Source of the DNA: an uncultured Candidatus Poseidoniales archaeon
Lineage (GTDB): Archaea; Thermoplasmatota; Poseidoniia; Poseidoniales; Poseidoniaceae
Direction of reading: 5' to 3'
Assembly: GCA_905182125.1 (NCBI GenBank)
Contig: CAJJAV010000027.1
Span: 24,607 to 88,606, forward strand
Length of the DNA: 64,000 bases
This document shows, one piece after another, positions 15,170 through 60,577 of this stretch; the stretch's first letter is position 1; every line of letters begins with the position of its first letter. Under the pieces are notes generated by a model, which was not told the DNA's origin, made no database searches, and saw nothing but the letters and a program-made list of their open reading frames with translations. The position numbers and the translations under genes were made by a program.

Positions 15170-15259
15170 CCAAAACAACCCTGAATCAAACTCAGATTCA
15201 CTTGCCCGTAGCATCAGTTGGATGGAGATGTTTTTACCCTGTTCTCCTGACCGTTGGTT

Positions 15260-26572: not shown

Positions 26573-26676
26573 GTTGTTCAACACATCGCAGTACCAAGAT
26601 TGGGAAATCCTCCATTATTATCATAAGTCATCCATGAAACCGGAGCATGAAGGGTGACCCCCTTTGGGTGACGAAC

Positions 26677-29598
26677 ATGATTCAAGAACATTGGCACGAT
26701 ATTAGCCCTGAAGATACTTTCGCGAAGTTGGAAACCCAATCTGAAGGACTCACAAACAGCGAAGTTGTCACCCGTCGAGAACGCTATGGGGAAAACAAAC
26801 TCCAAGAACCAAAAAAGACACCCGGATGGCTCCGTTTCCTCTCTCAATACCACGACCCTTTGAATTATTTATTGATTGGTGCGGCCTTGGTTGCGCTTTC
26901 CATCGACCCCGACCATCCAGGTGATGCTATTTTCATCTTCTCCGTTCTCACAGCCAATGCCATCTTCGGCTATTGGCAAGAAGGTCAGGCAGAGCAAGCC
27001 ATGGATGCTCTCAAACAAATGGCAGTATCCACGTGCATCGTTGTACGAGATGGCGTGGAGCAGGAAGTACCTACGCCCCTGCTCGTACCCGGCGATGTGG
27101 TCCGCCTTGAGGAAGGCCTCAATGTACCGGCTGACGTGAGAATCGTCGAATCTTATCAGTGCAAAGTGGACGAGTCATCCCTAACGGGAGAATCAAACAG
27201 CATAAAAAAAACCGTCGGTGTTTTACCTACGGAATCATTGCTGGCTGATCGAAACAACATGGCCTACATGGGCACAACTGTAGCGAGCGGTCGTTCGGTT
27301 GGGATTGTGGTCAATATTGGAATGGAGACCGAACTTGGTCGCATTGCAAGTGATATCGTTGGTGCAGAATCTCCGAAAACACCCCTCGAAAACAAACTAG
27401 AATCCCTAGGTAAATTCTTGGGAATGGTGGCACTTGTTGTCGCCGTTTTGATGGTTGCCATCAAGATGATGATCGCTTATGGTGATGAATCAGCGGATCT
27501 GAAGGAAGTTGCTATTGAACAATTCATTGTCGCCATTGCCATCTTCGTAGCAATCGTTCCAGAGGGTTTACCAATTATTTTGGTCATCACCTTGGCCCTC
27601 GGTATGCGGAACATGGCGAAGCACAAAGCGATCATTCGACGCATGAAAGCCGTTGAAACACTCGGTTCAACCACCGTGATTTGCTCAGATAAAACTGGCA
27701 CATTGACGAAGAATCAAATGACAGCGCGTCAACTCACCACCACTGAAGGTACGTTCACCATCTCTGGTGAAGGGTTCAAACCCAAAGGGGACCTTTCGTA
27801 CAACGACGAAGTTGTTACAGAGGCAGAACTGTCAGGATTGCAAAGCGATCTGGGTTTCCGTTTGTCTGCTGCTTGCTTGAGCCTTTGTCACAATTCTCAA
27901 GTCTCAAAGGTTGATGGGCAATGGCAAGCCTTGGGCGACCCAACCGACTCAGCCTGTGCAGTCCTTGGCTGGAAAATTAATGGTGATGTTCGTAAGTTTG
28001 CACAACGTCATTCTCGAATTCATGAGTTCTTCTTTGATGCAACCCGCAAGAGAATGTCAGTCATTCATGATTACGAAGGTGAGCGCTGGGTGTTCTCGAA
28101 AGGTGGAGCGGGTGGCTACGTACCTCTTGTTAAATGGAAAATTTTGGATGGAGAAATCGTTCCAATTGAACAGAAGGATTTCGATTTGGCTTCAATTGCC
28201 AACAAAGAAATGGCGAGCCGTGCTATGCGCGTGATTGCTCTTTGTGCTCGACGCCTTGACGATGACGAGAACATCGAAGACATCAAAACCGTAGAATCAA
28301 GTTTCATCTTCCTCGGCCTGGTTGGAATCATGGATCCTCCGCGTGCTGAAGTCAAAGAAGCGATTGAAATTTGTCAACGTGCAGGTATCCGGGTCAAAAT
28401 GATCACCGGCGACCAGCAATACACGGCAGAGGCAATCGGTCGAGAACTCAACATTACCGAAGGTGGAATCCCTCCAGTCAACGGTCATGCACTCTCTCAA
28501 TTCGATGATGAAGCTCTGAATGAGGCATCCGCTAAAGCCTCGATTTTCTCGCGTGTCACACCGGAACAAAAAATGCGAATTGTATCCTCGCTTCAAAGCC
28601 AAGGCGAAATTGTCGCCATGACTGGCGATGGTGTGAACGATGCACCTGCCCTTTCACGTGCCAACATTGGTATTGCCATGGGTATAGCAGGCACTGACGT
28701 AGCCAAAGACGCAGCAGACATGGTCCTTCAGGATGACAATTTCGCCAACATTGTTCACGCAGTTGAAGAAGGAAGAAAAATCTATCAAAACATCCGGAAC
28801 TTTGTCCGTTACCAAGTATCGACTAACGTTGCTGCTGTTGCATTGATTCTCATATCGACCTTCTTATTTGGTTGGAATCTTCCACTGACAGCAACTCAAA
28901 TTTTGGTGATCAACATCCTCATGGATGGACCACCTGCCGTAGCCCTCGGCGTGGAGAAAAACCATGGAGAGGTCATGAACCAACCGCCGCGTCCTGTGGA
29001 TGAAGGTATGCCGAATTTCAGGGATATCACGCTCATTTTCTACCTCGGTGCAGTCATGGTAACTGGAACCCTCATTGTGTTCTTCCTCGCAGGCGGAGGT
29101 GTTGGAACATGTGAATTGCACCCACTCCAAACAGAGGACGATGCACCCTTTGATGTCGCCATGTGCAACCTCGGTATCGGCTCTGGAGCAGATTCTTCCA
29201 ACGCAGAGCAAGTTGCTGCGGTCGAAGCATCTGAGCAGTACAGCAGTGACCTTTTCGAGCATGCCCAAACAATGACATTCTCGGTTTTCATTGTCTATCA
29301 GTTGTTTAACGTCATGAATTGCCGAAGCAATCGAGAAAGTGCGTTTAAACTTGGTCTCTTTTCCAATCAATGGATCAATTATGCCTTCTTGTTCTCGCTT
29401 GGCTTGTTAATCTTCTTTGTTCAACTGGCCGAACATCAAGTTCCATTCACCTCACTTTACATCGGTGAACTGATGTCCACGACGGTACTGAGTTCGACCG
29501 ATTGGGTGATTATATTTGCAGTTTCAGCCTCTGTGTTCGTCATTGACGAGTTCAGAAAGTTTATTGTTAATTCCAAGTTTTTCACCCCCGGCCGATGA
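26677..29598 (+). CDS. P-type cation ATPase, Ca2+-type (P2)
   Basis: A membrane pump of 973 aa. The N-terminal cation-ATPase domain has L-x-x-xGLTNSEVVTRRERYGENKL. TGES is the A-domain loop, and AIVPEGLPIILVITLALGM is the M4 ion-binding motif, closest to Ca/Mn-type PEGLP. DKTGTLTKNQM carries the phosphorylated Asp near residue 340. ITGDQQYTA and MTGDGVNDAPALSRANIGIAMG follow. Ten TM helices are expected, with an unusually long acidic loop containing two Cys (GGGVGTCELHPLQTEDD...VAMCNLG) between late helices. I chose the Met preceded by GGGTGA; the track Met ten codons upstream is also possible. Confidence 0.92.
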   Translation: MIQEHWHDISPEDTFAKLETQSEGLTNSEVVTRRERYGENKLQEPKKTPGWLRFLSQYHDPLNYLLIGAALVALSIDPDHPGDAIFIFSVLTANAIFGYWQEGQAEQAMDALKQMAVSTCIVVRDGVEQEVPTPLLVPGDVVRLEEGLNVPADVRIVESYQCKVDESSLTGESNSIKKTVGVLPTESLLADRNNMAYMGTTVASGRSVGIVVNIGMETELGRIASDIVGAESPKTPLENKLESLGKFLGMVALVVAVLMVAIKMMIAYGDESADLKEVAIEQFIVAIAIFVAIVPEGLPIILVITLALGMRNMAKHKAIIRRMKAVETLGSTTVICSDKTGTLTKNQMTARQLTTTEGTFTISGEGFKPKGDLSYNDEVVTEAELSGLQSDLGFRLSAACLSLCHNSQVSKVDGQWQALGDPTDSACAVLGWKINGDVRKFAQRHSRIHEFFFDATRKRMSVIHDYEGERWVFSKGGAGGYVPLVKWKILDGEIVPIEQKDFDLASIANKEMASRAMRVIALCARRLDDDENIEDIKTVESSFIFLGLVGIMDPPRAEVKEAIEICQRAGIRVKMITGDQQYTAEAIGRELNITEGGIPPVNGHALSQFDDEALNEASAKASIFSRVTPEQKMRIVSSLQSQGEIVAMTGDGVNDAPALSRANIGIAMGIAGTDVAKDAADMVLQDDNFANIVHAVEEGRKIYQNIRNFVRYQVSTNVAAVALILISTFLFGWNLPLTATQILVINILMDGPPAVALGVEKNHGEVMNQPPRPVDEGMPNFRDITLIFYLGAVMVTGTLIVFFLAGGGVGTCELHPLQTEDDAPFDVAMCNLGIGSGADSSNAEQVAAVEASEQYSSDLFEHAQTMTFSVFIVYQLFNVMNCRSNRESAFKLGLFSNQWINYAFLFSLGLLIFFVQLAEHQVPFTSLYIGELMSTTVLSSTDWVIIFAVSASVFVIDEFRKFIVNSKFFTPGR

Positions 29599-30880: not shown

Positions 30881-31684
30881 ATGAGCAACGAACAACAGCA
30901 ATGGAAAAAAATTATTGGACGGGTTGCTTTCCTCAATTGTGATCCACTGTTTCACGGTCTTGACCCTCAATGGAGTGTTCTTCCTGCTCCACCTTCTTGG
31001 CTCACTGGCCATCTGTTGCGAAGGGATTGTGTCCTCGCGCCAATACCTGCTGCTGACTACGCACGTAACTCAGATGAGTTGGTCCTCGTACCTGAAATTG
31101 GAATATGCAGCAAAGGTGAGGTCGGGAGTGTTCTTGTTTTCGGGGACATGCCGATTAAAGACATGAAGACACTTGCTCTACCGACGGACTCTCAGACCTC
31201 TGTGGCTCTTTTGATGTACATTCTAAAGCAGGATGGACTCAACCCAGAAACACGCCTCATGGGGCCTGATTTAGACTCCATGCTCGCTTCTTGTGACGGG
31301 GCACTGTTGATTGGAGATCGAGCGCTTGAAGGTGCAAAACTCCGCCCAGAGTCAGTGCAATTGGATTTGGGTACCGCATGGTTGGAACGTACGTCGAAAC
31401 CAATGGTATTCGGTGTGTTCGCAGCACGCAAAGACACACCAGTAGCAGATGTAAAGGCAGCCCAAACAGCCCTTCTTGAACGGCTGAACCTGTTCGAACA
31501 AGATCCAGGTCAAAGGCAAGCCGTTATTGAATGGTCAATGACTCGATCTGATTTAGAATACGATCGTTTGAATCGGTATTTCGGAGAAGTCTTCAACCGC
31601 CTCGACGGTGAACACATGGAAGGTTTGGAACAGTTCCTCGTAGATGCGTGCGGACTCGAAGAAGGCTCAATCTTCGCTTGGTGA
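30881..31684 (+). CDS. mqnA: Chorismate dehydratase
   Basis: A 267-aa enzyme of the MqnA/MqnD periplasmic-binding-protein fold that dehydrates chorismate to 3-enolpyruvyl-benzoate, the first futalosine step. It has GRVAFLNCDPLFHGL at the start, LAPIPAADYARNSDELVLVPEIGICSKGEVGSV (the usual substrate-binding Ser/Asn region), LALPTDSQTSVALLMYIL, and GALLIGDRAL. GAGGTGATCTT lies before the ATG, giving a good Shine-Dalgarno. It follows mqnE by 9 bp and its 3' end overlaps the convergent WD40-like gene by 18 bp. Confidence 0.9.
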   Translation: MSNEQQQWKKIIGRVAFLNCDPLFHGLDPQWSVLPAPPSWLTGHLLRRDCVLAPIPAADYARNSDELVLVPEIGICSKGEVGSVLVFGDMPIKDMKTLALPTDSQTSVALLMYILKQDGLNPETRLMGPDLDSMLASCDGALLIGDRALEGAKLRPESVQLDLGTAWLERTSKPMVFGVFAARKDTPVADVKAAQTALLERLNLFEQDPGQRQAVIEWSMTRSDLEYDRLNRYFGEVFNRLDGEHMEGLEQFLVDACGLEEGSIFAW

Positions 31685-33898
31685 TTCATCTTCCGCTTTG
31701 TCCGATTGGGTGACCACCCTTCGCGTTTTCCTGACAGGGGCATCCGATACCTTGGCTTTCTTTTTCACAGCCGTCCGCTTTTTTGGGGCTTTTTCAACAT
31801 CCGAACCATCAAGGCGTTTACGCTTGACTGTTGTGATTGGGCCTTCCTTCGATTCAGTCGAAACACGCGTTCGTCGGCTTGTCTGTTGGGAGGTGGGTTC
31901 ATTTGATGCTTCATCTTTTCCAGCAATCCTGGACCGCGTTGGAGATTGGATGTCTTCATCCTCGTCATCTTCAGGCTCCTCCTCAACCGTGCTTTGGTTG
32001 CCGCTGGATTGAGTCTCTGAATCACTGGTTGGTTTCCGTTGTGCTAGAGGTTCAACAGGGTCGGCTGGTTCATCATCAAAGATATCCAAATCCATCCCAC
32101 GATTGTTCTTGGCTCGTAGCACTGCGATGCTCGCAAGGCCAACAAGTCCGATAATTGGAAGGAAAAGGATGGGGTAATCAGCGAACAGTTGCACGCCTTT
32201 TTCGGTTAACGTGAGCTCAATGATCGTCTCTTTCTCGAGGGTCAGAACCAGAGGTGATTCTGTAATCCACCATGGGGATAATTGCACTGAATCAGCACCT
32301 TCCCCGAAAATTTCAATGTTGATTGGGTGCATTTCTACCAAATGAGTGAGGGATGCATCAGTAGCTTCCGGTTGTTCTTCCAAGGTCACAATGAGAGGAT
32401 AGGACAGCGAAGACGAACGATTGAACGTTACTTCGAACTCCAAACTGATCATTGAGAGGTAATCATTCCTTGCTTTAAATGTCATTCCATCTGTGACGCT
32501 GCAGCTGACTTCCCCGCCTGTCAGTTGACCTTCGGATAGGACAATATTGTCACCCCATTCCTCGATGAACCTTACTTTGTTGAGATTTGAACAGACACTT
32601 TGTGCAAATAAATCCGCTTCTGCTGGACTGAGTTGCAGGTCTTGGATGAGTGATGTTCTTGACATGTTGCGGATGGAGGAAGAAAGAACGCTGTCTAATT
32701 TCACACGGTCTACGATGATGACGTGGGTATCATTGAATCGCATGTGGACCGATCGAATGTTGTTTAGATCTGGTGATCGGCTGCAATCTTCAACACCCTC
32801 CTGGCAATTGTTGTCCCATTGGTCGGATGTAGCATCGCCATCATCGTCATCATCATGGGTGTCGGGAATACCGTCACCGTCTAAATCTGCTCCTGCGATG
32901 CCAAACCCATCGGCCAATTGATGGTGGCCATAGGATGCAATATGAAGAGAGTTCGTGGCCACGTAGAGTTGCGTAATCATTCCGTAGAGGTTGTCCACAA
33001 AGGCCATGTCCTTGACTTCGTGCGCCATTGAAGTTGTTTCAACAATATCAAACGTTGTTGAGTCCACTGAGATGACCATTGGCGATGTTCCGGGCACAGT
33101 AAGATGGAGGTAATTCCCAAGGGCAGACCATTCCATTGAACCGCCGGATTCAAATTTGGCGTTGAGCAGTGAACCGCCTGCAAAAGACATGGTGTTGAGG
33201 TCACCTTCAATGGTGAGTGTAGCAATTCGAGTTTCCATAGGATCGAATTCACACGATGTAAGTTCGTTGACCAATTCCCACTTTTTGGTGGTTGGTGTTC
33301 CGTCGAAGTTCCACATCACCACACGACCTGAAGCATCGCCTGTCAACAAATGTCCACCGTTGGGAGAGAAGGAAACACAGGTCACATCGGTGTTGTGTTC
33401 ACCAGTGAGGCTCCGTTCGAGGCCCATGTCTTCAACACGGATGAGGTTCACCCCATTATCGCTGTTGGGCACCGCTAAAAAATCCCCATCAGGCGACCAT
33501 GCAACATCGACTGGGCGGGCATTTGCAGCCTGTACCTTCCCAGTTAGAGTCATTGAGTCCATGTCATAAATGCGGATGGAATCCATGTCCAGTTCTGATC
33601 CAGAAGTGGCGATGGCAATTGTCGATCCATCTGGCGAGAATTCGAGGGTTTGGACGGGCCGCGCAATATCAACGACATCGATCAGCGTCATGTTCGCCAA
33701 CCACATAATGGCAAGGTGATCGTCATAGCCACTGGCCAGGTACATCGCATCTCCATCAATGGCTACGGAGGCTGAACCGTCCGCTTCTGGGAGTGTGCTG
33801 ACGCCTGTGAAGGAGATTTCAGATGAGGCAGAGGCCGTTGGGAGCGTGGTGAACACCAGCATCGCCAAAACGATGATTGCAGCTGTCTCGGCCTTCAA
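31667..33898 (-). CDS. Exported WD40-like beta-propeller protein with TM anchor and charged tail
   Basis: A 743-aa protein. A signal peptide MKAETAAIIVLAMLVFTTLPTASA is followed by WD40/YVTN-like blades over about 30-320 (FSPDGSTIAIATSGSELDMDSIRIYDM, VAWSPDGDFLAVPNSDNGVNLIRV, VSFSPNGGHLLTGDASGRVVMWN). A calcium-loop patch DLDGDGIPDTHDDDDDGD lies near 345, then a second extracellular domain. One TM helix near 580 (YPILFLPIIGLVGLASIAVL) is followed by a cytoplasmic tail of about 140 aa rich in Glu/Asp and then Lys/Arg (KRKRLDGSDVEKAPKKRTAVKKKAK). Function unknown. It sits opposite mqnA and mqnD and interrupts that plus-strand group. Confidence 0.75.
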   Translation of the reverse strand: MKAETAAIIVLAMLVFTTLPTASASSEISFTGVSTLPEADGSASVAIDGDAMYLASGYDDHLAIMWLANMTLIDVVDIARPVQTLEFSPDGSTIAIATSGSELDMDSIRIYDMDSMTLTGKVQAANARPVDVAWSPDGDFLAVPNSDNGVNLIRVEDMGLERSLTGEHNTDVTCVSFSPNGGHLLTGDASGRVVMWNFDGTPTTKKWELVNELTSCEFDPMETRIATLTIEGDLNTMSFAGGSLLNAKFESGGSMEWSALGNYLHLTVPGTSPMVISVDSTTFDIVETTSMAHEVKDMAFVDNLYGMITQLYVATNSLHIASYGHHQLADGFGIAGADLDGDGIPDTHDDDDDGDATSDQWDNNCQEGVEDCSRSPDLNNIRSVHMRFNDTHVIIVDRVKLDSVLSSSIRNMSRTSLIQDLQLSPAEADLFAQSVCSNLNKVRFIEEWGDNIVLSEGQLTGGEVSCSVTDGMTFKARNDYLSMISLEFEVTFNRSSSLSYPLIVTLEEQPEATDASLTHLVEMHPINIEIFGEGADSVQLSPWWITESPLVLTLEKETIIELTLTEKGVQLFADYPILFLPIIGLVGLASIAVLRAKNNRGMDLDIFDDEPADPVEPLAQRKPTSDSETQSSGNQSTVEEEPEDDEDEDIQSPTRSRIAGKDEASNEPTSQQTSRRTRVSTESKEGPITTVKRKRLDGSDVEKAPKKRTAVKKKAKVSDAPVRKTRRVVTQSDKAEDESPSED

Positions 33899-51553: not shown

Positions 51554-52183
51554 ATGGGGGATGATTACACCGCGCTTAGGACTCACCTCGCTGAAGGAAT
51601 CCCCTCCGTTATTCCTCAACATCCAGGCACCGATTCCTCGGTCGACCATGCGCCTAAAAGAAGGCAAATTTTGACACCTGATGAGAAAAAATTAGCATTA
51701 CGCAACGCATTAAGGTACTTTCCAACAAACCAACACTCGATCCTAGCGCCCGAATTTGCTGAGGAATTGAATTCCTTTGGCCGAATCATCATGTGGCGAT
51801 ACCGTCCAACTGAGTATGAAATGAGAGCCCACCCGATCGATGCATATCCGGCGAAGAGCAAACATGCTGCCTCGGTCATGTTGATGATTCAGAACAATCT
51901 GGACCCGGCTGTTGCACAATTCCCCCATGAATTGATCACCTACGGGGGAAATGGTTCGGTGTTCCAAAATTGGGCTCAGTACCGACTCACCATGCATTAC
52001 CTCTCCAAGATGGATGATGAACAAACGTTGGTCATGTATTCTGGCCACCCAATGGGGCTTTTTCCTTCCCACTCAAACGCCCCACGTGTGGTCGTGACAA
52101 ACGGGATGATGATCCCGAGTGAATCGACACCTGAGAATTATGAACGGCTCAACGCCTTGGGGTCACTCAATACGGCCAAATGA
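51554..52183 (+). CDS. hutU: Urocanate hydratase, N-terminal part (frame disrupted)
   Basis: The first 209 residues of an animal-type (long) urocanase. It has KKLALRNALRYFP, LAPEFAEELNSFGRI, LMIQNNLDPAVAQFPHELITYGGNGSVFQNWAQYRL (NAD+ region) and LVMYSGHPMGLFPSHSNAPRVVVTNGM. The frame then ends LNALGSLNTAK-stop. In the -1 frame the same DNA reads LGVTQYGQMTAGS, which is the conserved continuation. One G is missing from a G run (GGGG where GGGGG would restore the frame), or a -1 ribosomal slip occurs there. The start is uncertain: the track Met is 11 codons upstream. Confidence 0.88.
   Translation: MGDDYTALRTHLAEGIPSVIPQHPGTDSSVDHAPKRRQILTPDEKKLALRNALRYFPTNQHSILAPEFAEELNSFGRIIMWRYRPTEYEMRAHPIDAYPAKSKHAASVMLMIQNNLDPAVAQFPHELITYGGNGSVFQNWAQYRLTMHYLSKMDDEQTLVMYSGHPMGLFPSHSNAPRVVVTNGMMIPSESTPENYERLNALGSLNTAK
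52159..52162 (+). other. GGGG run: frame-change point within hutU
   Basis: Upstream codons read GCC TTG GGG TCA (ALGS); homology requires GCC TTG GGG GTC ACT CAA TAC GGC CAA ATG (ALGVTQYGQM). A single extra G restores one ORF. A tRNA-Gly on GGG can also slip -1 and re-pair perfectly with GGG. The disruption is therefore placed to within the four Gs. Confidence 0.85.
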
Positions 52184-53589
52184 CGGCTGGGTCCTATATG
52201 TATATTGGCCCTCAAGGTATTGTTCACGGCACAACGATCACCCTGCTGAATGCCGCACGGAATCACTTAGGCCTCTCAGGCGACGTTGGTCTTGGTGGTG
52301 TGACGTTCGTCACCTCTGGACTTGGCGGCATGTCTGGCGCTCAAGCCAAAGCTGCTGTAATTGCCGGAGCCTCATGTATTGTTGCAGAATCCAACGCTCA
52401 CGCAGCTCATAAACGCCATCAACAAGGCTGGCTGAGTGAGGTTACGGACAACATCGACGTGGCCATTGACAGGATGGTCTATTGTGCGAAGAACAAGACC
52501 GCAATTTCGATCGGATACATTGGAAACATCGTTGATTTATGGGAACGTTTGGTCGAGCGGGAGGTACGCGTCGATATGGGTTCTGATCAAACCAGCCTTC
52601 ACAACCCCTACCAAGGTGGATATTTCCCCGCAGGCTACGCATACGAAGATGCTGCCACGATGTTGTCAGATGAACCGGAACGCTTTGCGAGTGAAGTACG
52701 TTCAACACTGAAGCGTCACGCACATGCCATCAACAGAATGTCATCGAATGGGATGTATTTCTGGGATTATGGCAACGCCTTTTTGTTGGAAGCAAGCCGG
52801 GCTGGTGCTGATGTCCTCAAGGATGATGGTTCATTTCGTTACCCCAGCTATGTCGAAGATATCATGGGCCCGATGTGCTTTGATTACGGATTTGGACCAT
52901 ACCGTTGGGTCTGTGCCTCTGGCGACCCACAGGATCTCAAGATCACCGACCGGATTGCCATGGATGTTCTCATTGGAATGATGGATTCTGCTCCGGTGGA
53001 AATCCAGCAACAAATGAAGGATAACATTCGTTGGATCAAAGAAGCGGGTGAGAATCAAATGGTTGTTGGTTCCCAAGCACGTATCCTCTATGCAGACGAT
53101 GAAGGCCGTCGGAAAATCGCCTCAGCCATGAACAAAGCGATCAGGTCAGGAGAACTCTCCGGGCCAATTATACTGGGCCGCGATCATCATGATGTTTCGG
53201 GCACAGACAGCCCTTACCGGGAAACTGCGAACATCCGCGACGGATCGATATGGACTGCCGATATGGCGGTTCAGAACTTCGTAGGGGATTCGTTTCGTGG
53301 TGCGACATGGGTCAGCCTCCACAATGGCGGCGGAGTCGGCTGGGGACAAGTCATCAACGGTGGGTTTGGCATGCTCCTCGACGGCAGCGATGAATGTGAG
53401 CGACGTTTGCAATCCATGCTGCACTGGGATGTAAACAACGGCGTTGCTCGAAGAGCATGGGCTCGGAACTCTGGGGCCAACTTTGCTATCAAGAGGGCTA
53501 TGGAGGCAGAACCACGCTTGAGCGTAACGCTTCCATTCTCAGCAACCGATGAAACAATCAATTCCGCTTTCCCACGAGGTGAACAATGA
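52180..53589 (+). CDS. hutU: Urocanate hydratase, C-terminal part (frame disrupted)
   Basis: The remaining 469 residues of urocanase, opening at the conserved Met of GQMTAGSYMYIGPQGIVHGT. Catalytic and NAD-binding signatures include VTSGLGGMSGAQAKAA, VDMGSDQTSLHNPYQGGYFPAG, FWDYGNAFLLEASRAGADV, RWVCASGDPQDL, SRDHHDVSGTDSP-like GRDHHDVSGTDSPYRETANI, and LHNGGGVGWGQVINGGFG. Together with the upstream piece the length is about 675 aa, matching the long urocanase type. The ATG overlaps the upstream stop (ATGA), so reinitiation could yield a two-chain enzyme. It converts urocanate to imidazolonepropionate. Its stop overlaps hutH (ATGA). Confidence 0.93.
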   Translation: MTAGSYMYIGPQGIVHGTTITLLNAARNHLGLSGDVGLGGVTFVTSGLGGMSGAQAKAAVIAGASCIVAESNAHAAHKRHQQGWLSEVTDNIDVAIDRMVYCAKNKTAISIGYIGNIVDLWERLVEREVRVDMGSDQTSLHNPYQGGYFPAGYAYEDAATMLSDEPERFASEVRSTLKRHAHAINRMSSNGMYFWDYGNAFLLEASRAGADVLKDDGSFRYPSYVEDIMGPMCFDYGFGPYRWVCASGDPQDLKITDRIAMDVLIGMMDSAPVEIQQQMKDNIRWIKEAGENQMVVGSQARILYADDEGRRKIASAMNKAIRSGELSGPIILGRDHHDVSGTDSPYRETANIRDGSIWTADMAVQNFVGDSFRGATWVSLHNGGGVGWGQVINGGFGMLLDGSDECERRLQSMLHWDVNNGVARRAWARNSGANFAIKRAMEAEPRLSVTLPFSATDETINSAFPRGEQ

Positions 53590-55139
53590 TGCGTCCAACA
53601 GTTTCTTTTGATGGTACAACCCTTACGCCTGCTGAAGTTGAACGGGTTGCCACAAATAACGCAGATGTTAAGATTTCAGAAGATGCGTGGCAGAAAGTGC
53701 ACGTTGCTCGGAATGTTGTCGACGGAATTCTCTCGAGAGGCGAGACCGTTTACGGCATCAATACGGGATTCGGGGCCTTGGTTCACCAACGAATATCTCC
53801 TGACGATTTGGCACAACTCCAAACCAACCTCGTACGCTCTCACGCAACGGGTTTGGGTGATGCAATGTCCCGATCCTCTGTTCGGGCAATGATGGCGGTC
53901 CGAATCAATTCTCTCGTCAAAGGTCACTCAGGTGTTCATCCGGATGTCCTTGAACAGTTGCTGAACTTCCTCAACAACGACATCATCCCTCATGTCCCGA
54001 GAATTGGCAGCCTCGGTGCCAGCGGCGATCTTGCGCCATTGTCCCACATGGCGCTCTCATTGCTCGGTGAAGGAATGGTGCTGGACGACCAGAATAATCC
54101 GATTCCAACCCAAGAAGCATTGGTTCAGCACGGCTTGATTGGCATCAAACTTCGGGCCAAAGATGGATTATCCCTCATCAATGGGACAAGTCAAATGCTG
54201 GCTTTCATGACTTTAGCTGAACGGCGCCTAAGCGCATTGCTGCCACTCGCTGATTTGATTTTGTGCACCTCAATGGAGGCACGTAAAGCGAGCGTCCAAC
54301 CATCGGATCAAAGGGTCCATGATGCTCGCCCCCACCCTGGACAAGGTTTGGTAGCACGACGGATACGGACAATGATGGAACATTCCCTCATCGTTGAATC
54401 TCATTCAGACTGTGAGCGCGTTCAGGATGCGTACTCCTTCCGATGTGCTCCGCAAGTGCACGGAGCCGTTCTCCAACGTTACAACGCCATGCTTGAGACA
54501 CTGGAGATTGAATTGAACAGTGCCACAGACAATCCTCTCATTTTCCCTGATCCGAAAAACCCTGGACCTCATGAAGTCATTTCTCAAGGAAATTTTCATG
54601 GCGAAGTAATTGCCTTAGCTGCGGATGCCATGTCCGCCGCTCTTTTTGAAATTGGTTCTATTTCTGAGCGTAGAATTGATCAGATGCTCGATCCAGCACG
54701 AAGTGAACTGCCACCGTTTCTGGCCCGAAATTCTGGACTTGAGTCCGGTTTGATGATCGTCCAGTACGTCGCAGGTGCCTCATTGGCTGAGTTACACGGT
54801 CATGCCACGCCACGCGCTGCATTTTCCACCACGACGTCGGCAGGGCAAGAAGATCACGTGAGTATGGGTGCTACGGCCGCATGGAATCTCCTTGAAGCAA
54901 CGCAACGCCTGTCTGAAGTGCTCGCCTGCGAACTCTTTGTTGCTTGCGAAGCGCTGGAGTTTGAATCCATCCCACCTGCTCCATATGTCCTCGCACTCAA
55001 GCAGCGCGTCCGTACCATTGCCAAACCGCTCGATGGCGACCGCAGTACCAGCAGAGAATTGATTGATATTGCGGTAGCACTCTCCGATGGTGCTTGGTTG
55101 GCTCGTATTGAAGCCGAACTCGGTCGAATTCCACGTTAA
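53586..55139 (+). CDS. hutH: Histidine ammonia-lyase
   Basis: A 517-aa enzyme of the MIO-cofactor aromatic ammonia-lyase family that deaminates histidine to urocanate. The self-cyclising Ala-Ser-Gly is in GSLGASGDLAPLSHMAL near residue 146. YGINTGFGALVHQRI near 57, LINGTSQMLAF, and QDAYSFRCAPQVHGA are active-site landmarks; NSATDNPLIFPD and FHGEVIALAADAMSAAL complete the pattern. The CxPQVxG and His-specific residues favour HAL over PAL/TAL. It overlaps hutU by ATGA, so translation is coupled. Its TAA overlaps the convergent DUF835 gene stop (TTAA). Confidence 0.95.
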   Translation: MMRPTVSFDGTTLTPAEVERVATNNADVKISEDAWQKVHVARNVVDGILSRGETVYGINTGFGALVHQRISPDDLAQLQTNLVRSHATGLGDAMSRSSVRAMMAVRINSLVKGHSGVHPDVLEQLLNFLNNDIIPHVPRIGSLGASGDLAPLSHMALSLLGEGMVLDDQNNPIPTQEALVQHGLIGIKLRAKDGLSLINGTSQMLAFMTLAERRLSALLPLADLILCTSMEARKASVQPSDQRVHDARPHPGQGLVARRIRTMMEHSLIVESHSDCERVQDAYSFRCAPQVHGAVLQRYNAMLETLEIELNSATDNPLIFPDPKNPGPHEVISQGNFHGEVIALAADAMSAALFEIGSISERRIDQMLDPARSELPPFLARNSGLESGLMIVQYVAGASLAELHGHATPRAAFSTTTSAGQEDHVSMGATAAWNLLEATQRLSEVLACELFVACEALEFESIPPAPYVLALKQRVRTIAKPLDGDRSTSRELIDIAVALSDGAWLARIEAELGRIPR

Positions 55140-55993
55140 TTTGTAAACATCAACGATTCAAGCTCGTCGAGTCCCGTAAGTTGCCTGATACGGAATTTTG
55201 AAGTTGTCAACTCACTCGCACTGAGATCAGACTTCATCGTGTCAATCCGCCGTTCTAATTCGACAGCCCGCCGGACTTTTTCTTCAACCTTTGAGTACAA
55301 TGCGTGGGCTTCACTGTCTTCAAAGTGGAGTGCTGGTTCTACTTCGGAAACATCGAGACCCATGCGACGCCATTGCAAGATTCTTTTTCTTAGGATCTGT
55401 TTGGTGAAACCGGTTTCTGGTAACCGGGTTAGCATGACGAGGTGTGGCAATCCTTCCTCGGTCGAACCTCGCTCCTCGAAGATTGGCTCTACCGTTGATT
55501 CTTCCACGACCGATTCCGACTCGAGCGATTCTGTTTTTGGACCAGATAGTTCCAGCAATGGTGCTTCCCTGTGCAGCCTTGCAACCCAAATGGAATTGAA
55601 AGCGAGGGGGTTGATTGGGAGCAACAAGGACCATTGGGTCCGATGAAGATCATCCCTTAAACCTCGAATAAAATTGAGCACTGTTGTTTCACCATGCAGT
55701 GTGACAAGCCATTCCAATCCTTCCAATATGATCAGCCCACGGTGATTGTTGACGCGTGCTAGAATCAATGAGTGAACCTGTGCTAAGTCAGGAGCGATGT
55801 GCCCTTGGCCGACTCGATCGGTGAGCCAATACGTTTCCACCTTTGTTATGTCCAGTTGATCAATCAGCCTTCGATGCGGTAATCTCGAGAAAAAGACAAC
55901 ATGATCGTCAGAGGACTGGACCGCACGGTCAATCCATTCGAGCATGGGTACTTTAGAATCAAGTTCACAACAATAAAGTTGACCTTTTTCCAT
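55136..55993 (-). CDS. DUF835-domain protein
   Basis: A 285-aa archaeal protein. Residues about 1-150 fit the DUF835 pattern: WLTDRVGQGHIAPDLAQVHSLILARVNNHRGLIILEGLEWLVTLHGETTVLNFIRGLRDDLHRTQWSLLLPINPLAF. An acidic Ser/Glu linker follows, then a basic helical C-terminus with a coiled coil (SKVEEKVRRAVELERRIDTMKSDL). GGAGGTGAAAAC directly before the chosen ATG is a strong Shine-Dalgarno and decides the start against the track Met 13 codons upstream. DUF835 proteins are often linked to sensing or signalling in archaea, but no function is established here. It lies back-to-back with the EF-hand gene. Confidence 0.75.
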   Translation of the reverse strand: MEKGQLYCCELDSKVPMLEWIDRAVQSSDDHVVFFSRLPHRRLIDQLDITKVETYWLTDRVGQGHIAPDLAQVHSLILARVNNHRGLIILEGLEWLVTLHGETTVLNFIRGLRDDLHRTQWSLLLPINPLAFNSIWVARLHREAPLLELSGPKTESLESESVVEESTVEPIFEERGSTEEGLPHLVMLTRLPETGFTKQILRKRILQWRRMGLDVSEVEPALHFEDSEAHALYSKVEEKVRRAVELERRIDTMKSDLSASELTTSKFRIRQLTGLDELESLMFTN

Positions 55994-56103
55994 GTTTTCA
56001 CCTCCATTGATACCCACATTCAACCGCTCCATTGGTACGGGTAGACGTGGAAAGACTATGAATCATTATATCCGTTGATGTTGTCGGTAGAATAGGTGTG
56101 CCA

Positions 56104-57891
56104 ATGACTGAAGAGAAGACAGATGACGTTTCCACTGGTGAATGCGGTGCGTGTCGCGCCGTTATTCCGCTTGATTCTGACCAATGCCCTGAATGCAATA
56201 TCTCCTTCTCCGGCATATCTGAAGATGCCCTCGGGGAGTGCGGTTCCTGCCACGGTCTTGTCCCACTTGATTCCACCAAATGCACTCACTGCGGCACGGT
56301 CTTCATTGCAGATGACGTCGTTGATGTCCTACGGAATTGGCTAGCAACGACCGGAATTACAATCCCCATGCTGTTCCAGAAATTCGACACGGATGGTGAC
56401 GGGCAAATTGATTCAGCGGAATTGAAAACTGGTTTACTCAGTCTCAATCTGGCAGATCTCCCTCCTTCGCAGGTTGAACGTCTTATCGAAACCATCGATG
56501 CAGACGGCGACGGCCGGCTTGACCTGGGCGAACTCCATGCCACCATCACCGGTGAGGCTTTGCCTTCCGAAGATACTGCAACAAAGAATTCTGACGATAC
56601 ATCCGAAGAGGGCATTGACGAAACCAAATCCGAAGAAGAATCCATCGACGAAGAAGAAGAAGTTGAAGATTCAGCGGATGAGGTTGAATCGGAATCAGAA
56701 GAAAGTGACGCCGAAGATGAGGCAGAGGACGAAATCGAAGAGGAGTCGTCTGAATCCAAGGACGACGAAGACGATGCAACTGAAGAAGAACCTGAGGATG
56801 ATCCCGAAGAAGTAAATCTCAATGAACCCGAAGATGCCGAGGAAGCAACATCTCTCATCCGACGAATTGCGGATGCAATGGATGAACAAGGCTCATCACC
56901 AAACCGGTTCTTCAGCACCCTCGACAAGGACGCCGATGGAGGCGTAGATGTCTCTGAACTGACCAATGCTCTCTCTGAACTTTTGGGAAGTGAGGTTTCT
57001 TACGATGATGTTGAAGACTTCCTTTCGGAAGTTGACGGTGATGGTGACCGAAACATCGACATGATCGAATTCATCACCGCGCTCGAAACTCTTGATGATG
57101 CTGATGACTCAACCGATGTTGATGCCATGGTGAGCAAACCGTTCCCTACAAACCTGCAAAAGCAAATGATGGGGAAGCAATGGAATGATATTGTCTGGCC
57201 ATTGATTCACATGGGATTCGCACTTTTCATCGCTGTTTGGGTGCTCAATGCCTTTGGCGGCATCGGGCCGCTCGCCGTTGATGGGACTGGTGGTCCAGTC
57301 GAACTCGACATGAAAGGTCAATTATTGCATCCTGATGGATTGGTGAACGGAGACAGTTATTCCTGCAATCCAGAATACCAGGTTGGTGATTGTAAAAACT
57401 CACTTACACCGCTTGCTGGTGATTCCAGTTCCATGCCAGCCGGATTCTATTGGGATGGTATATTGTTCATGGTTTTGGGTGTGATTGGCCTCGCTGGCTC
57501 TCTCTTTGCCCACCTTGCCATCATGAGCTCATGGAGATCACGTGCCAAGGCAATGAAGGAAGTCGAGGATGACGCGACAGATGCGTCCTCCGAAGCTGAA
57601 GCAGATGAAGTCACATCTGAGTCAGAAGATGACGACTTGGAGGAAGAAATGGATGAGGCACTCGGTGATGATATCGATGAAGAGTCCCTGGATTCTGAAA
57701 TCGATGAAGATACTGAACAGGAAGCAGATGAATCAATTGATGTTGGATCGCACGTCGGCTTGACATTGGATGATGAAGAAGTCTATGGTACAATCATCGA
57801 ATTTGATGATGATGATGAAACGGTCACCATCGAAGAAGATAAATCTGGTGATATCATCACTGGCTACCAATCCGATATGTTCCTGGAGTGA
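56104..57891 (+). CDS. Zinc-ribbon / EF-hand membrane protein with acidic linkers
   Basis: A 595-aa protein. Two zinc ribbons open it (CGACRAVIPLDSDQCPEC and CGSCHGLVPLDSTKCTHCG). An EF-hand pair follows at about 95-155 (FDTDGDGQIDSAEL and IDADGDGRLDLGEL), then an acidic linker of about 85 residues. A second EF pair has LDKDADGGVDVSEL and VDGDGDRNIDMIEF. Two TM helices (about 365-385 and 455-480) flank a loop with CNPEYQVGDC, possibly a disulfide. An acidic cytoplasmic tail ends in a small beta-rich domain (VGLTLDDEEVYGTIIEFDDDDETVTI). I infer calcium sensing at the membrane; partner unknown. ATG chosen over GTG two codons upstream. Confidence 0.8.
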   Translation: MTEEKTDDVSTGECGACRAVIPLDSDQCPECNISFSGISEDALGECGSCHGLVPLDSTKCTHCGTVFIADDVVDVLRNWLATTGITIPMLFQKFDTDGDGQIDSAELKTGLLSLNLADLPPSQVERLIETIDADGDGRLDLGELHATITGEALPSEDTATKNSDDTSEEGIDETKSEEESIDEEEEVEDSADEVESESEESDAEDEAEDEIEEESSESKDDEDDATEEEPEDDPEEVNLNEPEDAEEATSLIRRIADAMDEQGSSPNRFFSTLDKDADGGVDVSELTNALSELLGSEVSYDDVEDFLSEVDGDGDRNIDMIEFITALETLDDADDSTDVDAMVSKPFPTNLQKQMMGKQWNDIVWPLIHMGFALFIAVWVLNAFGGIGPLAVDGTGGPVELDMKGQLLHPDGLVNGDSYSCNPEYQVGDCKNSLTPLAGDSSSMPAGFYWDGILFMVLGVIGLAGSLFAHLAIMSSWRSRAKAMKEVEDDATDASSEAEADEVTSESEDDDLEEEMDEALGDDIDEESLDSEIDEDTEQEADESIDVGSHVGLTLDDEEVYGTIIEFDDDDETVTIEEDKSGDIITGYQSDMFLE

Positions 57892-57895
57892 TCCA

Positions 57896-58264
57896 ATGAG
57901 CAAGGACCCGCTGCTAGCGTACGCGGACCTCGCTGCCTGCCCAACATGTGGTTGTTTGGAACGACGCGGGGCTGTCCGGTGTGGCGAATGCGGCACCTTT
58001 CATGCCGGCGTCGTGATGGAGGAGCGTCAGGCCCCTGATACCTCAATGGTTGTCGATAGAGCCCCCATCGATCCAGCAGCATATTCCCTTTCAGGTTCCC
58101 AACCAGTCCCTGATGAAACATTCGAAGAGAGTGAAGAAATCGTGAATTGGGAAGGTGGCTCCTCCGACTTTACAATGGAAGATGTCGAAGAAGCTCCTCT
58201 TGGAAGAATTGACCCTGATGATTTGGAATTACCCAAGCCGGAAGATTTGTCTTCGATTGAATAG
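57896..58264 (+). CDS. Small zinc-ribbon protein
   Basis: A 122-aa protein beginning MSKDPLLAYADLAACPTCGCLERRGAVRCGECGTFHAG, a four-Cys zinc ribbon (CPTC...CGEC). The remaining 80 residues are acidic and low-complexity (FEESEEIVNWEGGSSDFTMEDVEEAPLGRIDPDDLELPKPEDLSSIE). It starts 4 bp after the EF-hand gene stop, so the two are co-transcribed and share zinc-ribbon plus acidic-tail design. The track ORF adds 42 residues from another frame of the EF-hand gene. I do not recognise a named family. Confidence 0.72.
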   Translation: MSKDPLLAYADLAACPTCGCLERRGAVRCGECGTFHAGVVMEERQAPDTSMVVDRAPIDPAAYSLSGSQPVPDETFEESEEIVNWEGGSSDFTMEDVEEAPLGRIDPDDLELPKPEDLSSIE

Positions 58265-58294
58265 GTGTTAATCGCCAGCCCTTGGGCATAAATA

Positions 58295-58309
58295 CTAATT
58301 ATCTATTAG
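58295..58309. repeat. Inverted repeat CTAAT-TATCT-ATTAG
   Basis: Five-bp arms around a 5-bp loop in the 87-bp gap between the convergent zinc-ribbon gene and tRNA-Val. AT-rich; possibly a terminator element for the plus-strand gene. Confidence 0.3.
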
Positions 58310-58325
58310 GATGCAAGTAACTAAT

Positions 58326-58343
58326 AATCACAAGGTTGTGATT
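58326..58343. repeat. Inverted repeat AATCACAA-GG-TTGTGATT
   Basis: Perfect 8-bp arms with a 2-bp centre, 8 bp beyond the encoded CCA of tRNA-Val. It could act as a terminator/processing element or a protein-binding site; no flanking T-run typical of a bacterial terminator is seen. Confidence 0.4.
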
Positions 58344-58351
58344 GAAGAGTT

Positions 58352-58427
58352 TGGTGGGCTCGGAGAGAATTGAACTCTCGATCTTCGCCATGTCAAGGCG
58401 ACGTCATAACCCCTAGACCACGAGCCC
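58352..58427 (-). tRNA. tRNA-Val (anticodon GAC)
   Basis: The minus strand folds as a complete cloverleaf. The acceptor stem is GGGCTCG/CGAGCCC, the D arm is GTC...GAC, and the anticodon stem TCGCC/GGCGA carries the loop TTGACAT (anticodon GAC, reading GUC/GUU). The T arm is GAGAG TTCAATT CTCTC. The discriminator is A, and the 3' CCA is encoded. No intron is visible. A TTTAATA BoxA lies about 30 bp before the 5' end. Confidence 0.95.
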
Positions 58428-58454
58428 CTAGGTAATTTGGCCACCGAACCGGTG

Positions 58455-58461
58455 TATTAAA
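58455..58461 (-). promoter_or_regulatory. Candidate BoxA/TATA for tRNA-Val
   Basis: TTTAATA on the minus strand, about 28-34 bp upstream of the tRNA 5' end. This is the distance expected if transcription begins within a few bases of the mature tRNA. Confidence 0.5.
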
Positions 58462-58485
58462 CCGCATCGGTCAAATTGGTCTGGT

Positions 58486-58686
58486 TCAACTAACGATCTT
58501 AGAAATTTTACCAGTGCAACCAGGTTGGGAGCAAAAACCACCCATACGCGTCCGGCCGTTTTTCATTTTGATGAGCTGGCCATCTTTGATCGGCCCGTAA
58601 GTTTTGCATTTCAAACAAAATCCCTCTACCGTCTTCATGTCGCTCATGCTGTCGTGAGTTGCACATTTCTTAGTTTCTTCGTTCAT
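58486..58686 (-). CDS. DUF5679-like small zinc protein
   Basis: A protein of up to 66 aa. The core VEGFCLKCKTYGPIKDGQLIKMKNGRTRMGGFCSQPGCTGKISKIVS has two Cys pairs (CLKC and CSQPGC) in the order C-x2-C, basic K/R-rich strand, G-x-C-x4-C. This matches my recollection of the DUF5679 pattern (YCxKCK...NGRxxxxGxCxxCG). A later Met (MSDMKTVEGF) could be the true start and would remove 13 residues. Function unknown; such mini zinc proteins are often nucleic-acid associated. It lies upstream of tRNA-Val on the same strand. Confidence 0.68.
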   Translation of the reverse strand: MNEETKKCATHDSMSDMKTVEGFCLKCKTYGPIKDGQLIKMKNGRTRMGGFCSQPGCTGKISKIVS

Positions 58687-58921
58687 TCCAAACCCAAACC
58701 GAGTCTATGTTCAAAAAATCGGACATTCCACCCACTGCCCCCTTGCTCGAAGGGTGATGTTTCATATTCCTTCGACAAAAAACAAGCACCTTGGGCTCTA
58801 AATGGGCTACTGCGGGTCAATTTATTTTTGATGCCCCATTCTTTGCACCGCCCGTTTGTGGCCATTGTCGTATAACATACATTATGCGACACGAAGGGGT
58901 GTGCCAAATGGCAGTTTAGCA

Positions 58922-59257
58922 TCAGGATTTGACAACCAGGTCATCCGAGTCAATTTCGAACATGCCAATCAGAGGTGGTCCAGCCACAACAGATTCCAAA
59001 CCACCATCTTTTGCATCGAGTACCTTGATCACTTCATCTGAGATCTTCTTCCATGCTTGGCGATCCACAAAGACACTTTGCACCAAAATCATTCCTTGAC
59101 CTTCAATTGATTCACCAATCCATGCACCAAGGCATCCATCCTGTCGACGTTTGTATGCTTGGCGCGTTTCGACCATTCTCAGGAACCGAGCGCCTTTCCC
59201 AGGAGCCCCGGCGCACACGACAGTTTCGACAAGAACTTTGTTGATTTTAGAATTCAT
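58922..59257 (-). CDS. Hypothetical protein (possible dimeric alpha/beta barrel)
   Basis: A 111-aa soluble protein, MNSKINKVLVETVVCAGAPGKGARFLRMVETRQAYKRRQDGCLGAWIGESIEG..., not confidently recognised. The order strand - long helix - DGCLGAW - strand with paired hydrophobics (GMILVQSVFVDRQAWKKIS) resembles ABM-type dimeric alpha/beta-barrel proteins (antibiotic-biosynthesis monooxygenase-like), but this rests on pattern only. It lies about 55 bp downstream of hutI on the same strand; TTTAAAA in that gap may be its own BoxA. The 235 bp following its stop hold no convincing gene. Confidence 0.55.
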   Translation of the reverse strand: MNSKINKVLVETVVCAGAPGKGARFLRMVETRQAYKRRQDGCLGAWIGESIEGQGMILVQSVFVDRQAWKKISDEVIKVLDAKDGGLESVVAGPPLIGMFEIDSDDLVVKS

Positions 59258-59311
59258 ACTATCACTACGGGTTTTCGATTAATTGGCGCTGAGAAAAGTT
59301 TTAAAGGTTTT

Positions 59312-60577
59312 TCAGTGATGGAATAAGGTTCCATTCAGCATGGTTGATTTGAACGGCGAGGTACCAGGTCGATTGCACCACGATTGCCATTGGCCACCAT
59401 CGACAATGTTCAGGTTCGCAGCAGCCCCGACCTGAATACGTCCATGGACCAGGCCATCGGGATGGATGGTTGTTTCAGATGGGTTTCGACTTGCAGCCAC
59501 AAGCGCGGCCAAGGGATCCACTTTGTTTCGATGGACGAGCAACGAGCCAATGAATGGCAAACTGAGGATGTTGCAATTGGGATTGAAATCTGTGGCAATC
59601 GACCATCGGTAGTTTTGTTCGACCGCTTCGTTGAACGAAGGCCAAGCCTCACCCATTGTGTAAGGCGTTCCAGGGAGGAATCCGGTATTGACACCAGCCT
59701 CTTCCATCCGTTGGCGACTTCCTGCCGGCGTGTAGTGGGCATGATCGGCCGTGACCACTCCTAATTCTGCTGCTAAATCACCTCCGCCTCCGTCAGAGAA
59801 TTCATCGATGTGAATTCTTTGGCGCAATCCACCCTTTTTCGATGCCATGAGAATTTCTTCACTTTCTTCTACCGTGAACCATCCTGGTTCACAAAAAACA
59901 TCTGCTGCTTGGGCGTATCCTTGGTTCAAGATTTGAGGCAACTGGTCTGAAAGAATTTCTTCGACATACTGCGAACGATCTTTTCCTGGTGGTGTGTCGT
60001 GGGCACCGAGCCACGTGAGTTCCATTGTTGGCAGATGAGCAATCCCCTTGAGTTCATGTGCCACATCGAGAAGCTGCAATTCAGATTCGGTTGTTAAACC
60101 GTAACCGCTTTTCGCTTCAAGGTGGGTTGTTCCGTTTGACAATGCAGCCCGCATCCGTTGATACCCTAACTTGAGGAGGTCTTCCTTGGAGGATTGGGCT
60201 GTGGATCGAACAGTATGTTGGATGCCGCCGCCTGATGCTGCGATATCTTGGTACGACATACCTTGTAGTTTCATAGAAAGTTCATTCGAACGGTCGCCCG
60301 ACCAAATGAGGTGATTATGCCCATCAACCAGCCCCGGCACCACCGCATTGCCACCGACTGAAACAATGGTCGTATCTTCGTTTGATTGCTCAGGGCCACC
60401 GAAGTGCTCATGAAGTTCATTTGAATCTTCAATAGATGTAATGACACCGCCTTCCACAACAATCCCCTTTCCAGCAGGAGATGTTAGTGCTTCATAATCG
60501 GACATTGACGCTCCACTCAACGATCCTTGCCCACCGAGGTGTGCAAGAGGCCCGAGGTCGAGGAAAACGGTCCGCAT
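59312..60577 (-). CDS. hutI: Imidazolonepropionase
   Basis: A 421-aa metal-dependent amidohydrolase that opens 4-imidazolone-5-propionate to N-formimino-L-glutamate, the third step of histidine degradation. GLVDGHNHLIWSGDRSNEL carries the metal-binding HxH. LEAKSGYGLTTESEL is the HutI signature, and IHIDEFSDGGGGDLAAELGVVTADHAHY and IATDFNPNCN supply the other metal and substrate ligands. It is slightly longer than many HutI proteins because of an N-terminal region around residues 10-40. It is divergent from kae1, with 51 bp between starts. It is about 4 kb from hutUH and on the opposite strand. Confidence 0.95.
   Translation of the reverse strand: MRTVFLDLGPLAHLGGQGSLSGASMSDYEALTSPAGKGIVVEGGVITSIEDSNELHEHFGGPEQSNEDTTIVSVGGNAVVPGLVDGHNHLIWSGDRSNELSMKLQGMSYQDIAASGGGIQHTVRSTAQSSKEDLLKLGYQRMRAALSNGTTHLEAKSGYGLTTESELQLLDVAHELKGIAHLPTMELTWLGAHDTPPGKDRSQYVEEILSDQLPQILNQGYAQAADVFCEPGWFTVEESEEILMASKKGGLRQRIHIDEFSDGGGGDLAAELGVVTADHAHYTPAGSRQRMEEAGVNTGFLPGTPYTMGEAWPSFNEAVEQNYRWSIATDFNPNCNILSLPFIGSLLVHRNKVDPLAALVAASRNPSETTIHPDGLVHGRIQVGAAANLNIVDGGQWQSWCNRPGTSPFKSTMLNGTLFHH

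Follow-up and report, generated by a model that had tools for sequence, protein, structure and literature searches.

Whether any prokaryote runs coordinated cytosolic calcium signalling is the question raised by a locus in the genome of a member of the Poseidoniales, the abundant, uncultured archaea of the surface ocean. The window analysed here (the whole stretch of DNA, 64,000 nucleotides) contains two adjoining genes that a first-pass annotation had described as a zinc-ribbon protein with four EF-hand loops and two transmembrane helices, followed by a second zinc-ribbon protein with an acidic tail, and had suggested to be a membrane-bound calcium sensor should the EF pairs lie in the cytosol. 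The reading we favor, with confidence evenly balanced for and against, is that the larger gene encodes a calcium-responsive adaptor, anchored in the membrane and facing the cytosol, and the smaller one its zinc-ribbon client or partner. Knowing the function of the cassette to which these genes belong would explain an order-specific protein family that carries no annotation.

EF-hand membrane proteins are already a known kind. Prokaryotic EF dyads fused to membrane or redox proteins have been surveyed (PMC7016017), and the placement of EF dyads on membrane-associated proteins is common to that survey and to the present locus. In the available sections of the survey, the examples are bacterial, neither the architecture nor the archaeal fusions reported here are among them, and the survey reports no evidence of joint action by such components in any clade of bacteria. 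Within the main texts of the open literature searched, EF-hands in combination with Poseidoniales or Marine Group II led to a single study (PMC9258230). Its accessible text describes modules that are specific to the families Poseidoniaceae and Thalassarchaeaceae and contain calcium-binding domains, and it suggests signalling; individual proteins, an architecture, a gene pair or an insertion in ATP synthase are not given there. EF-hands, A-type ATP synthase and archaea were not described jointly in the open literature searched, and the present architecture and pairing are not described in the main texts covered.

Domain architecture of the gene pair

The larger gene is an open reading frame of 595 codons on the forward strand (ATG at 56104, stop at 57891), followed after a gap of 4 bp by an open reading frame of 122 codons (ATG at 57896, stop at 58264). 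The features of the locus are as follows.

55136..56032, minus strand: divergent DUF835 (inactivated KaiC-like) gene, third cassette member (PF05763)
56058..56071, plus strand: conserved box ATGAATCATTATAT, 33-46 nt ahead of the start codon and shared by the upstream regions of many relatives
56104..57891, plus strand: EF-hand, zinc-ribbon, two-TM, Tudor-like membrane protein (ORF and translation, Pfam, 31-member alignment A1, AlphaFold)
56143..56196, plus strand: zinc ribbon 1, residues 14-31, CxxC-x10-CxxC, its four Cys invariant across all 31 members
56239..56292, plus strand: zinc ribbon 2, residues 46-63, CxxC-x10-CxxC, its four Cys invariant across all 31 members
56386..56532, plus strand: EF pair 1, with loops spanning residues 95-106 and 132-143 and an extra helix (69-83) before them (Pfam, AlphaFold, loop motif)
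56572..56847, plus strand: acidic linker, residues 157-248 (~90 residues), predicted disordered (AlphaFold pLDDT <50)
56923..57069, plus strand: EF pair 2, with loops spanning residues 274-285 and 311-322, the latter with Arg at position 6 (Pfam, AlphaFold, loop motif)
57190..57528, plus strand: predicted membrane hairpin, TM1 about 363-383, two-Cys extracellular loop, TM2 about 453-475 (hydropathy and charge bias, 31 members)
57730..57888, plus strand: Tudor/KOW-like SH3 barrel, residues 543-595 (AlphaFold and Foldseek)
57896..58264, plus strand: 122-aa zinc-ribbon partner with a conserved DPxxYSL...WxGGSTDF segment and acidic tail (alignment A3, adjacency)

From N to C terminus, the 595-residue protein consists of the two ribbons, the extra helix with EF pair 1, an acidic segment, EF pair 2, TM1, a loop of ~70 residues, TM2 continuing into a long helix, a second acidic segment and a five-strand barrel. 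Both N-terminal ribbons occur in all 53 full-length members; the double zinc ribbon family (DZR, PF12773) scores 21 bits against a gathering cut-off of 27.3, below the Pfam threshold, though the cysteine pattern remains invariant. The AlphaFold model reaches a mean pLDDT of only 66.5 because the linkers are disordered, with values of about 75-89 for the EF pairs and about 90 for the barrel. The sequence and length of the linker at residues 157-248 differ among species. Composition, low pLDDT and two TM segments bear out the acidic linker and membrane hairpin of the first-pass annotation.

Three canonical EF-hand loops and one variant form two pairs

Each loop was compared with the pattern D-x-[DNS]-x-[DNS]-G-x-[ILV]-x3-E, for which loops of a pair are expected 36-37 residues apart. 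Inspection of the loops starting at residues 95 (DTDGDGQIDSAE), 132 (DADGDGRLDLGE), 274 (DKDADGGVDVSE) and 311 (DGDGDRNIDMIE) indicates a spacing of 37 residues in both pairs, and the AlphaFold model depicts each pair as helix-loop-helix units. The two pairs thus agree with the initial description of four canonical loops, whereas strictly only three of the four are canonical, the fourth having Arg for Gly at position 6. Pfam searches return four EF-hand_1 stretches (joint E 1e-17, over the cut-off) and two EF-hand_7 pairs; with PF00036, PF13499, PF13405 and PF13202 all above cut-off, the protein belongs to the EF-hand superfamily. An NCBIfam match to XopAW was rejected, as its score is far below cut-off and reflects the EF-hands only. 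Among 20,000 composition-preserving shuffles of the protein, none reached three strict or four loose loops, so acidic composition does not explain them. Across the 31 relatives of alignment A1 the ligand positions are largely invariant or nearly so, which speaks against the concern that the loops might lack chelating geometry.

The likeness to calmodulin that had been proposed extends to architecture only. Calmodulins likewise have canonical loops, 36-37 residues apart, in two EF pairs, and they are the top Foldseek matches to the whole model (E about 3e-7). In contrast, superposing both pairs together gives a poor fit (an rmsd of about 14 Å and a target TM of 0.4), and from this low global TM and high rmsd the EF pairs are not placed as in calmodulin. 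Calmodulin is small and soluble, with two lobes and a short linker, whereas the 595-residue protein is membrane-anchored, carries zinc ribbons and a Tudor-like barrel, separates its pairs by ~130 mostly acidic residues and has relatives with anywhere from zero to three pairs.

The modelled C-terminal barrel is nearest to Tudor and KOW folds

Modelled alone, the barrel yields five strands at a pLDDT of 89. Its nearest Foldseek neighbours are the SMN Tudor, Agenet and MjSpt5 KOW domains, at a TM of about 0.8, so the earlier call of a KOW/SH3-like domain is reasonable at the level of fold; E-values of only 4e-3 to 8e-3 and the lack of any Pfam family above cut-off stop it there. Searched by sequence, the hairpin, the barrel and the partner have no match above cut-off among the families of Pfam, NCBIfam and PHROGs, and none in the PDB that is significant. 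In the partner, C15, C18, C29 and C32 are invariant (alignment A3, 35 members), and its resemblance to the zinc ribbons of eL40, eL43 and Rpb12 is weak and below significance.

These neighbours raise the idea of a docking platform at the membrane, with the ribbons and the barrel binding RNA polymerase, the ribosome or nucleic acid. The nearest folds of the barrel and the faint ribosomal and polymerase likeness of the partner point this way, but all such matches are at fold level or at E above 0.05, and both proteins are strongly acidic, which is unfavourable to nucleic acid binding; we regard this platform as very improbable.

Charge bias predicts cytosolic EF pairs

The calcium-responsive adaptor that we favor depends on the side of the membrane that the EF pairs face. 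The TM segments start at residues 363 and 453, and mean Lys+Arg counts over the 31 members are 3.6 before TM1, 1.5 in the ~70-residue loop and 4.4 after TM2. By the positive-inside rule, this bias predicts that both termini, and hence the ribbons, EF pairs and barrel, are cytosolic. The loop between the segments contains exactly two Cys in 31 of 31 members and ranks among the most conserved parts of the protein (C...C-NSLTP...SMPAGFYWDG). The condition attached to the sensor proposal, that the EF pairs be inside the cell, is therefore supported by charge bias and the two-Cys loop.

The gene pair is conserved within one order

A genome scan recovered 44 related loci, every one of them from a MAG titled as Poseidoniales, Poseidoniaceae or marine Euryarchaeota. 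The hairpin and barrel, combined into one profile, match 89 of 194 genomes of the order Poseidoniales; in a 293-genome sample of the phylum this profile finds only Poseidoniales members, plus one marginal match in genome G225 (E 1.7e-4), which was judged to be chance. The partner profile has strong matches in 89 genomes, and its weak matches in family f2 (E 1e-3 to 1e-5) were set aside as zinc-ribbon similarity only. Of the genomes searched, 87 contain both genes, which lie side by side in every one. Another four gave a match to a single member of the pair, and three of these four matches sit at a contig start. The pair is present in most genomes of family f1, where its absence is soft evidence because many genomes are incomplete, and in four genera only of family f2. 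Judged from these profiles, the pair is specific to the order Poseidoniales (MGII), and coordinates, invariant cysteines and tail confirm the second gene as the acidic zinc-ribbon neighbour first noticed. In some assemblies (loci L031 and L041) the EF gene is split into two frames, either by sequencing error or by a real break.

The notion that such EF-hands are rare in archaea holds for the phylum outside the order and fails inside it: EF-hand_7 matches with an E of 1e-6 or lower turn up in 79 of the 82 Poseidoniales genomes examined versus 3 of 211 other genomes of the phylum.

EF number varies on a constant core

Among the 53 full-length members, 16 have three EF pairs, 28 have two, eight have one and one has none, while the zinc ribbons, hairpin and barrel are constant. 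Members from family f2 carry one to three pairs. In genus g4, a single pair is present and its Gly6 is replaced in most members with retention of the acidic ligands; in genus g9, member L076 has the core without an EF pair, with DVDGDGAVDLVA as a possible remnant. The four loops seen here are therefore one state of a variable module, and predicted calcium binding behaves as a plug-in on the scaffold, such that the EF pairs are, from comparison of members, an added and usually retained input on a conserved membrane scaffold. With ribbons, hairpin, Tudor-like barrel and partner forming the conserved core, calcium is probably an input to this core and not its whole purpose, and L076 together with the single altered pair of g4 indicates that calcium is not essential for core function. 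It is in this respect that the sensor proposal, otherwise in line with predicted topology, conserved ligands and consistent adjacency, needs to be narrowed; it also predates sight of the third cassette gene, DUF835, and of further EF-hand proteins encoded elsewhere in the genome.

Variable EF number also bears on a simpler role as a membrane-tethered calcium buffer, whose EF pairs and long Asp/Glu-rich linkers would hold Ca2+ at the inner face without a specific signalling output. The 595-residue protein has a pI of 4.05 and 28% Asp+Glu, and acidic linkers with a changing number of EF pairs fit capacity better than a precise switch. A buffer would nonetheless have no need of the ribbons, barrel, extracellular loop and partner, which are far more conserved than the acidic segments, and we consider it quite unlikely.

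Alternatively, the EF-hands could be structural, permanently loaded with Ca2+ or Mg2+ for stability only, in a protein that serves as a scaffold or as a receptor for an extracellular signal through its conserved loop. That this loop is among the most conserved parts and that EF pairs can be lost, as in L076, would both be expected of such a protein, which we hold to be unlikely: pairs at 36-37 spacing in 52 of 53 members, fused also to unrelated membrane proteins, look regulatory.

A divergent DUF835 gene travels with the pair

The gene divergent from the EF gene is assigned to DUF835 by PF05763 (E 6.6e-12, 45.8 bits against a cut-off of 33.1). It neighbours the EF gene in about 56 of 61 loci, and wherever the two lie on one contig they are adjacent (75 of 75 cases). 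About 97 genomes of family f2 were searched, in which the pair occurs in 13, DUF835 in 16 and both in 11, an overlap with a hypergeometric P of 3e-9 when genomes are treated as unrelated. The pair and DUF835 share the same four of 11 f2 genera, whereas hutH is found in all 11, including the seven without the cassette, which argues that the three genes travel as a unit. Among the output domains of archaeal response regulators, DUF835 has been listed as an inactivated KaiC-like one (PMC5847659), a record that would suit a signalling role for the cassette.

Histidine-degradation genes (hutH, hutI and neighbours; window 52180-60577) flank the cassette, and this order is kept in other loci, including those of f2 that bear it. 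Gene order might imply a link of the cassette to histidine catabolism; as genera lacking the cassette still keep hutH, the cassette is not a necessary companion of that gene. A functional tie may still exist where both occur.

The box ATGAATCATTATAT has its sole match within the window at this position. Its core, AATCATTATAT, occurs in 44 of 167 loci, once in each, and the box could be a promoter.

A possible mechanism for the calcium-responsive adaptor

The adaptor reading draws on observed gene structure, domain order, conservation, pairing and cassette co-distribution, and on predicted topology and fold; from these we infer Ca2+ binding, conformational switching, partner binding and signalling. 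It is supported by ligands conserved in 31 members and a loop number far above chance, by predicted cytosolic topology, calmodulin-like Foldseek matches and invariable adjacency of the partner, by the movement of the cassette with DUF835 as a unit in f2, and by related EF modules on other membrane proteins together with a candidate Ca-type P-ATPase in the window, both described below. The two-helix hairpin would anchor the protein in the membrane, with the conserved Cys pair of the extracellular loop probably disulfide-bonded and the ribbons, EF pairs and Tudor-like barrel on the inner side. Upon a putative rise in cytosolic Ca2+, the EF pairs would load Ca2+ and shift conformation, which may alter docking of the 122-residue partner or other clients at the ribbons, barrel or EF pairs. 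Interaction with the partner is suggested by gene adjacency. The acidic linkers would give the modules reach and may buffer Ca2+, and a role in this pathway is probable for the divergent DUF835 gene too.

Related EF pairs occur on other membrane proteins

In three genomes of the genus, EF pairs are also carried by A-type ATP synthase subunit I, a 658-residue polytopic protein, amino-acid permeases, a zinc-ribbon Pro-rich protein, a ZnuA-like lipoprotein and others. Three further genes are relevant.

L002 337-2700, minus strand (also G000:C10:4448-6808): 787-aa subunit I of the A-type ATP synthase, carrying the EF insert (alignments)
L143 1498-3474, minus strand (also G000:C6): 658-aa polytopic membrane protein with C-terminal EF pair, no family found
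Window 26647-29598: candidate Ca-type P-ATPase (NCBIfam, PDB match)

EF pair 1 of the 595-residue protein is 40-46% identical to the ATP synthase and polytopic modules, gap-free over 58-74 residues apart from one shorter polytopic match, and is more distant from the permease pair. The ATP synthase and polytopic modules of the source genome are 65-67% identical to each other. The insert in subunit I spans ~92 residues (about 317-408 of 787) between the cytosolic and membrane halves, directly before the first membrane segment and on the expected cytosolic side, given what is established on the topology of subunit a/I. Alignments run through the insert in 47 genomes of the genus sample and fall into two pieces without it in six; the insert was not seen in the other genera searched, where alignments typically cover 1-316 plus 409-787, and the insert-less frames of closer genera measure about 675-690 aa. 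The polytopic protein has its EF pair in nearly all f1 genera tested, and the simplest reading of these sequences is that the module was copied from it into subunit I. A GTPase gene adjoins the polytopic gene. Assignment of the polytopic protein as a heme-copper oxidase subunit was dropped, as Pfam, NCBIfam and PDB searches gave no support.

The calcium-regulated mitochondrial carriers aralar and SCaMC carry N-terminal EF-hands fused to a transporter. The Poseidoniaceae permeases likewise fuse EF-hands to a transporter, but at the C terminus and on an unrelated transporter fold, such that the likeness is analogy only. Four such genes (L088, L086, L089 and L096) encode APC-family amino-acid permeases; the EF-hand pair at their C terminus has a degenerate first loop.

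A conserved, order-specific EF cassette and EF modules on ATP synthase and permease hint that internal calcium may be a signal. A broader, doubtful proposal, which we offer tentatively, is that a shared, protein-hopping EF-pair module underlies a coordinated regulatory network for cytosolic Ca2+ in Poseidoniaceae. Its members would be subunit I (one genus), the polytopic protein (family-wide), the permeases (distant) and the adaptor with its partner and DUF835. Were this so, a calcium-signalling system would act on energy metabolism and nutrient uptake in a prokaryote. Since subunit I has the insert in one genus and lacks it in close relatives, the two form a natural pair that makes the calcium question testable.

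The candidate Ca-type P-ATPase pointed out alongside the sensor proposal is indeed in the window, although it lies about 27 kb from the EF gene. Its best NCBIfam model is PMR1-type, at 668 bits below the cut-off of 798, and its nearest solved chain is the Ca ATPase lmo0841 (E 4e-163).

Several other candidate calcium-binding proteins were seen. Genome G002 encodes a small calmodulin-like protein with one EF pair in an open frame of 191 aa (L087 1126-1698, plus strand). Loci L104 and L105 encode ZnuA-like metal-binding proteins, probably lipoproteins and presumably extracellular, with several EF loops and His/Asp-rich segments. For a multi-EF protein, the matches on contigs C9 and C28 of genome G000 are identical, so part of that assembly may be redundant. 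The window also holds a predicted surface protein (15254-18328, plus strand) with tandem DxDGDGVGDNxDxFP repeats, thrombospondin type 3-like by eye, and a second predicted surface protein (31667-33898, minus strand) with one acidic stretch similar to these repeats.
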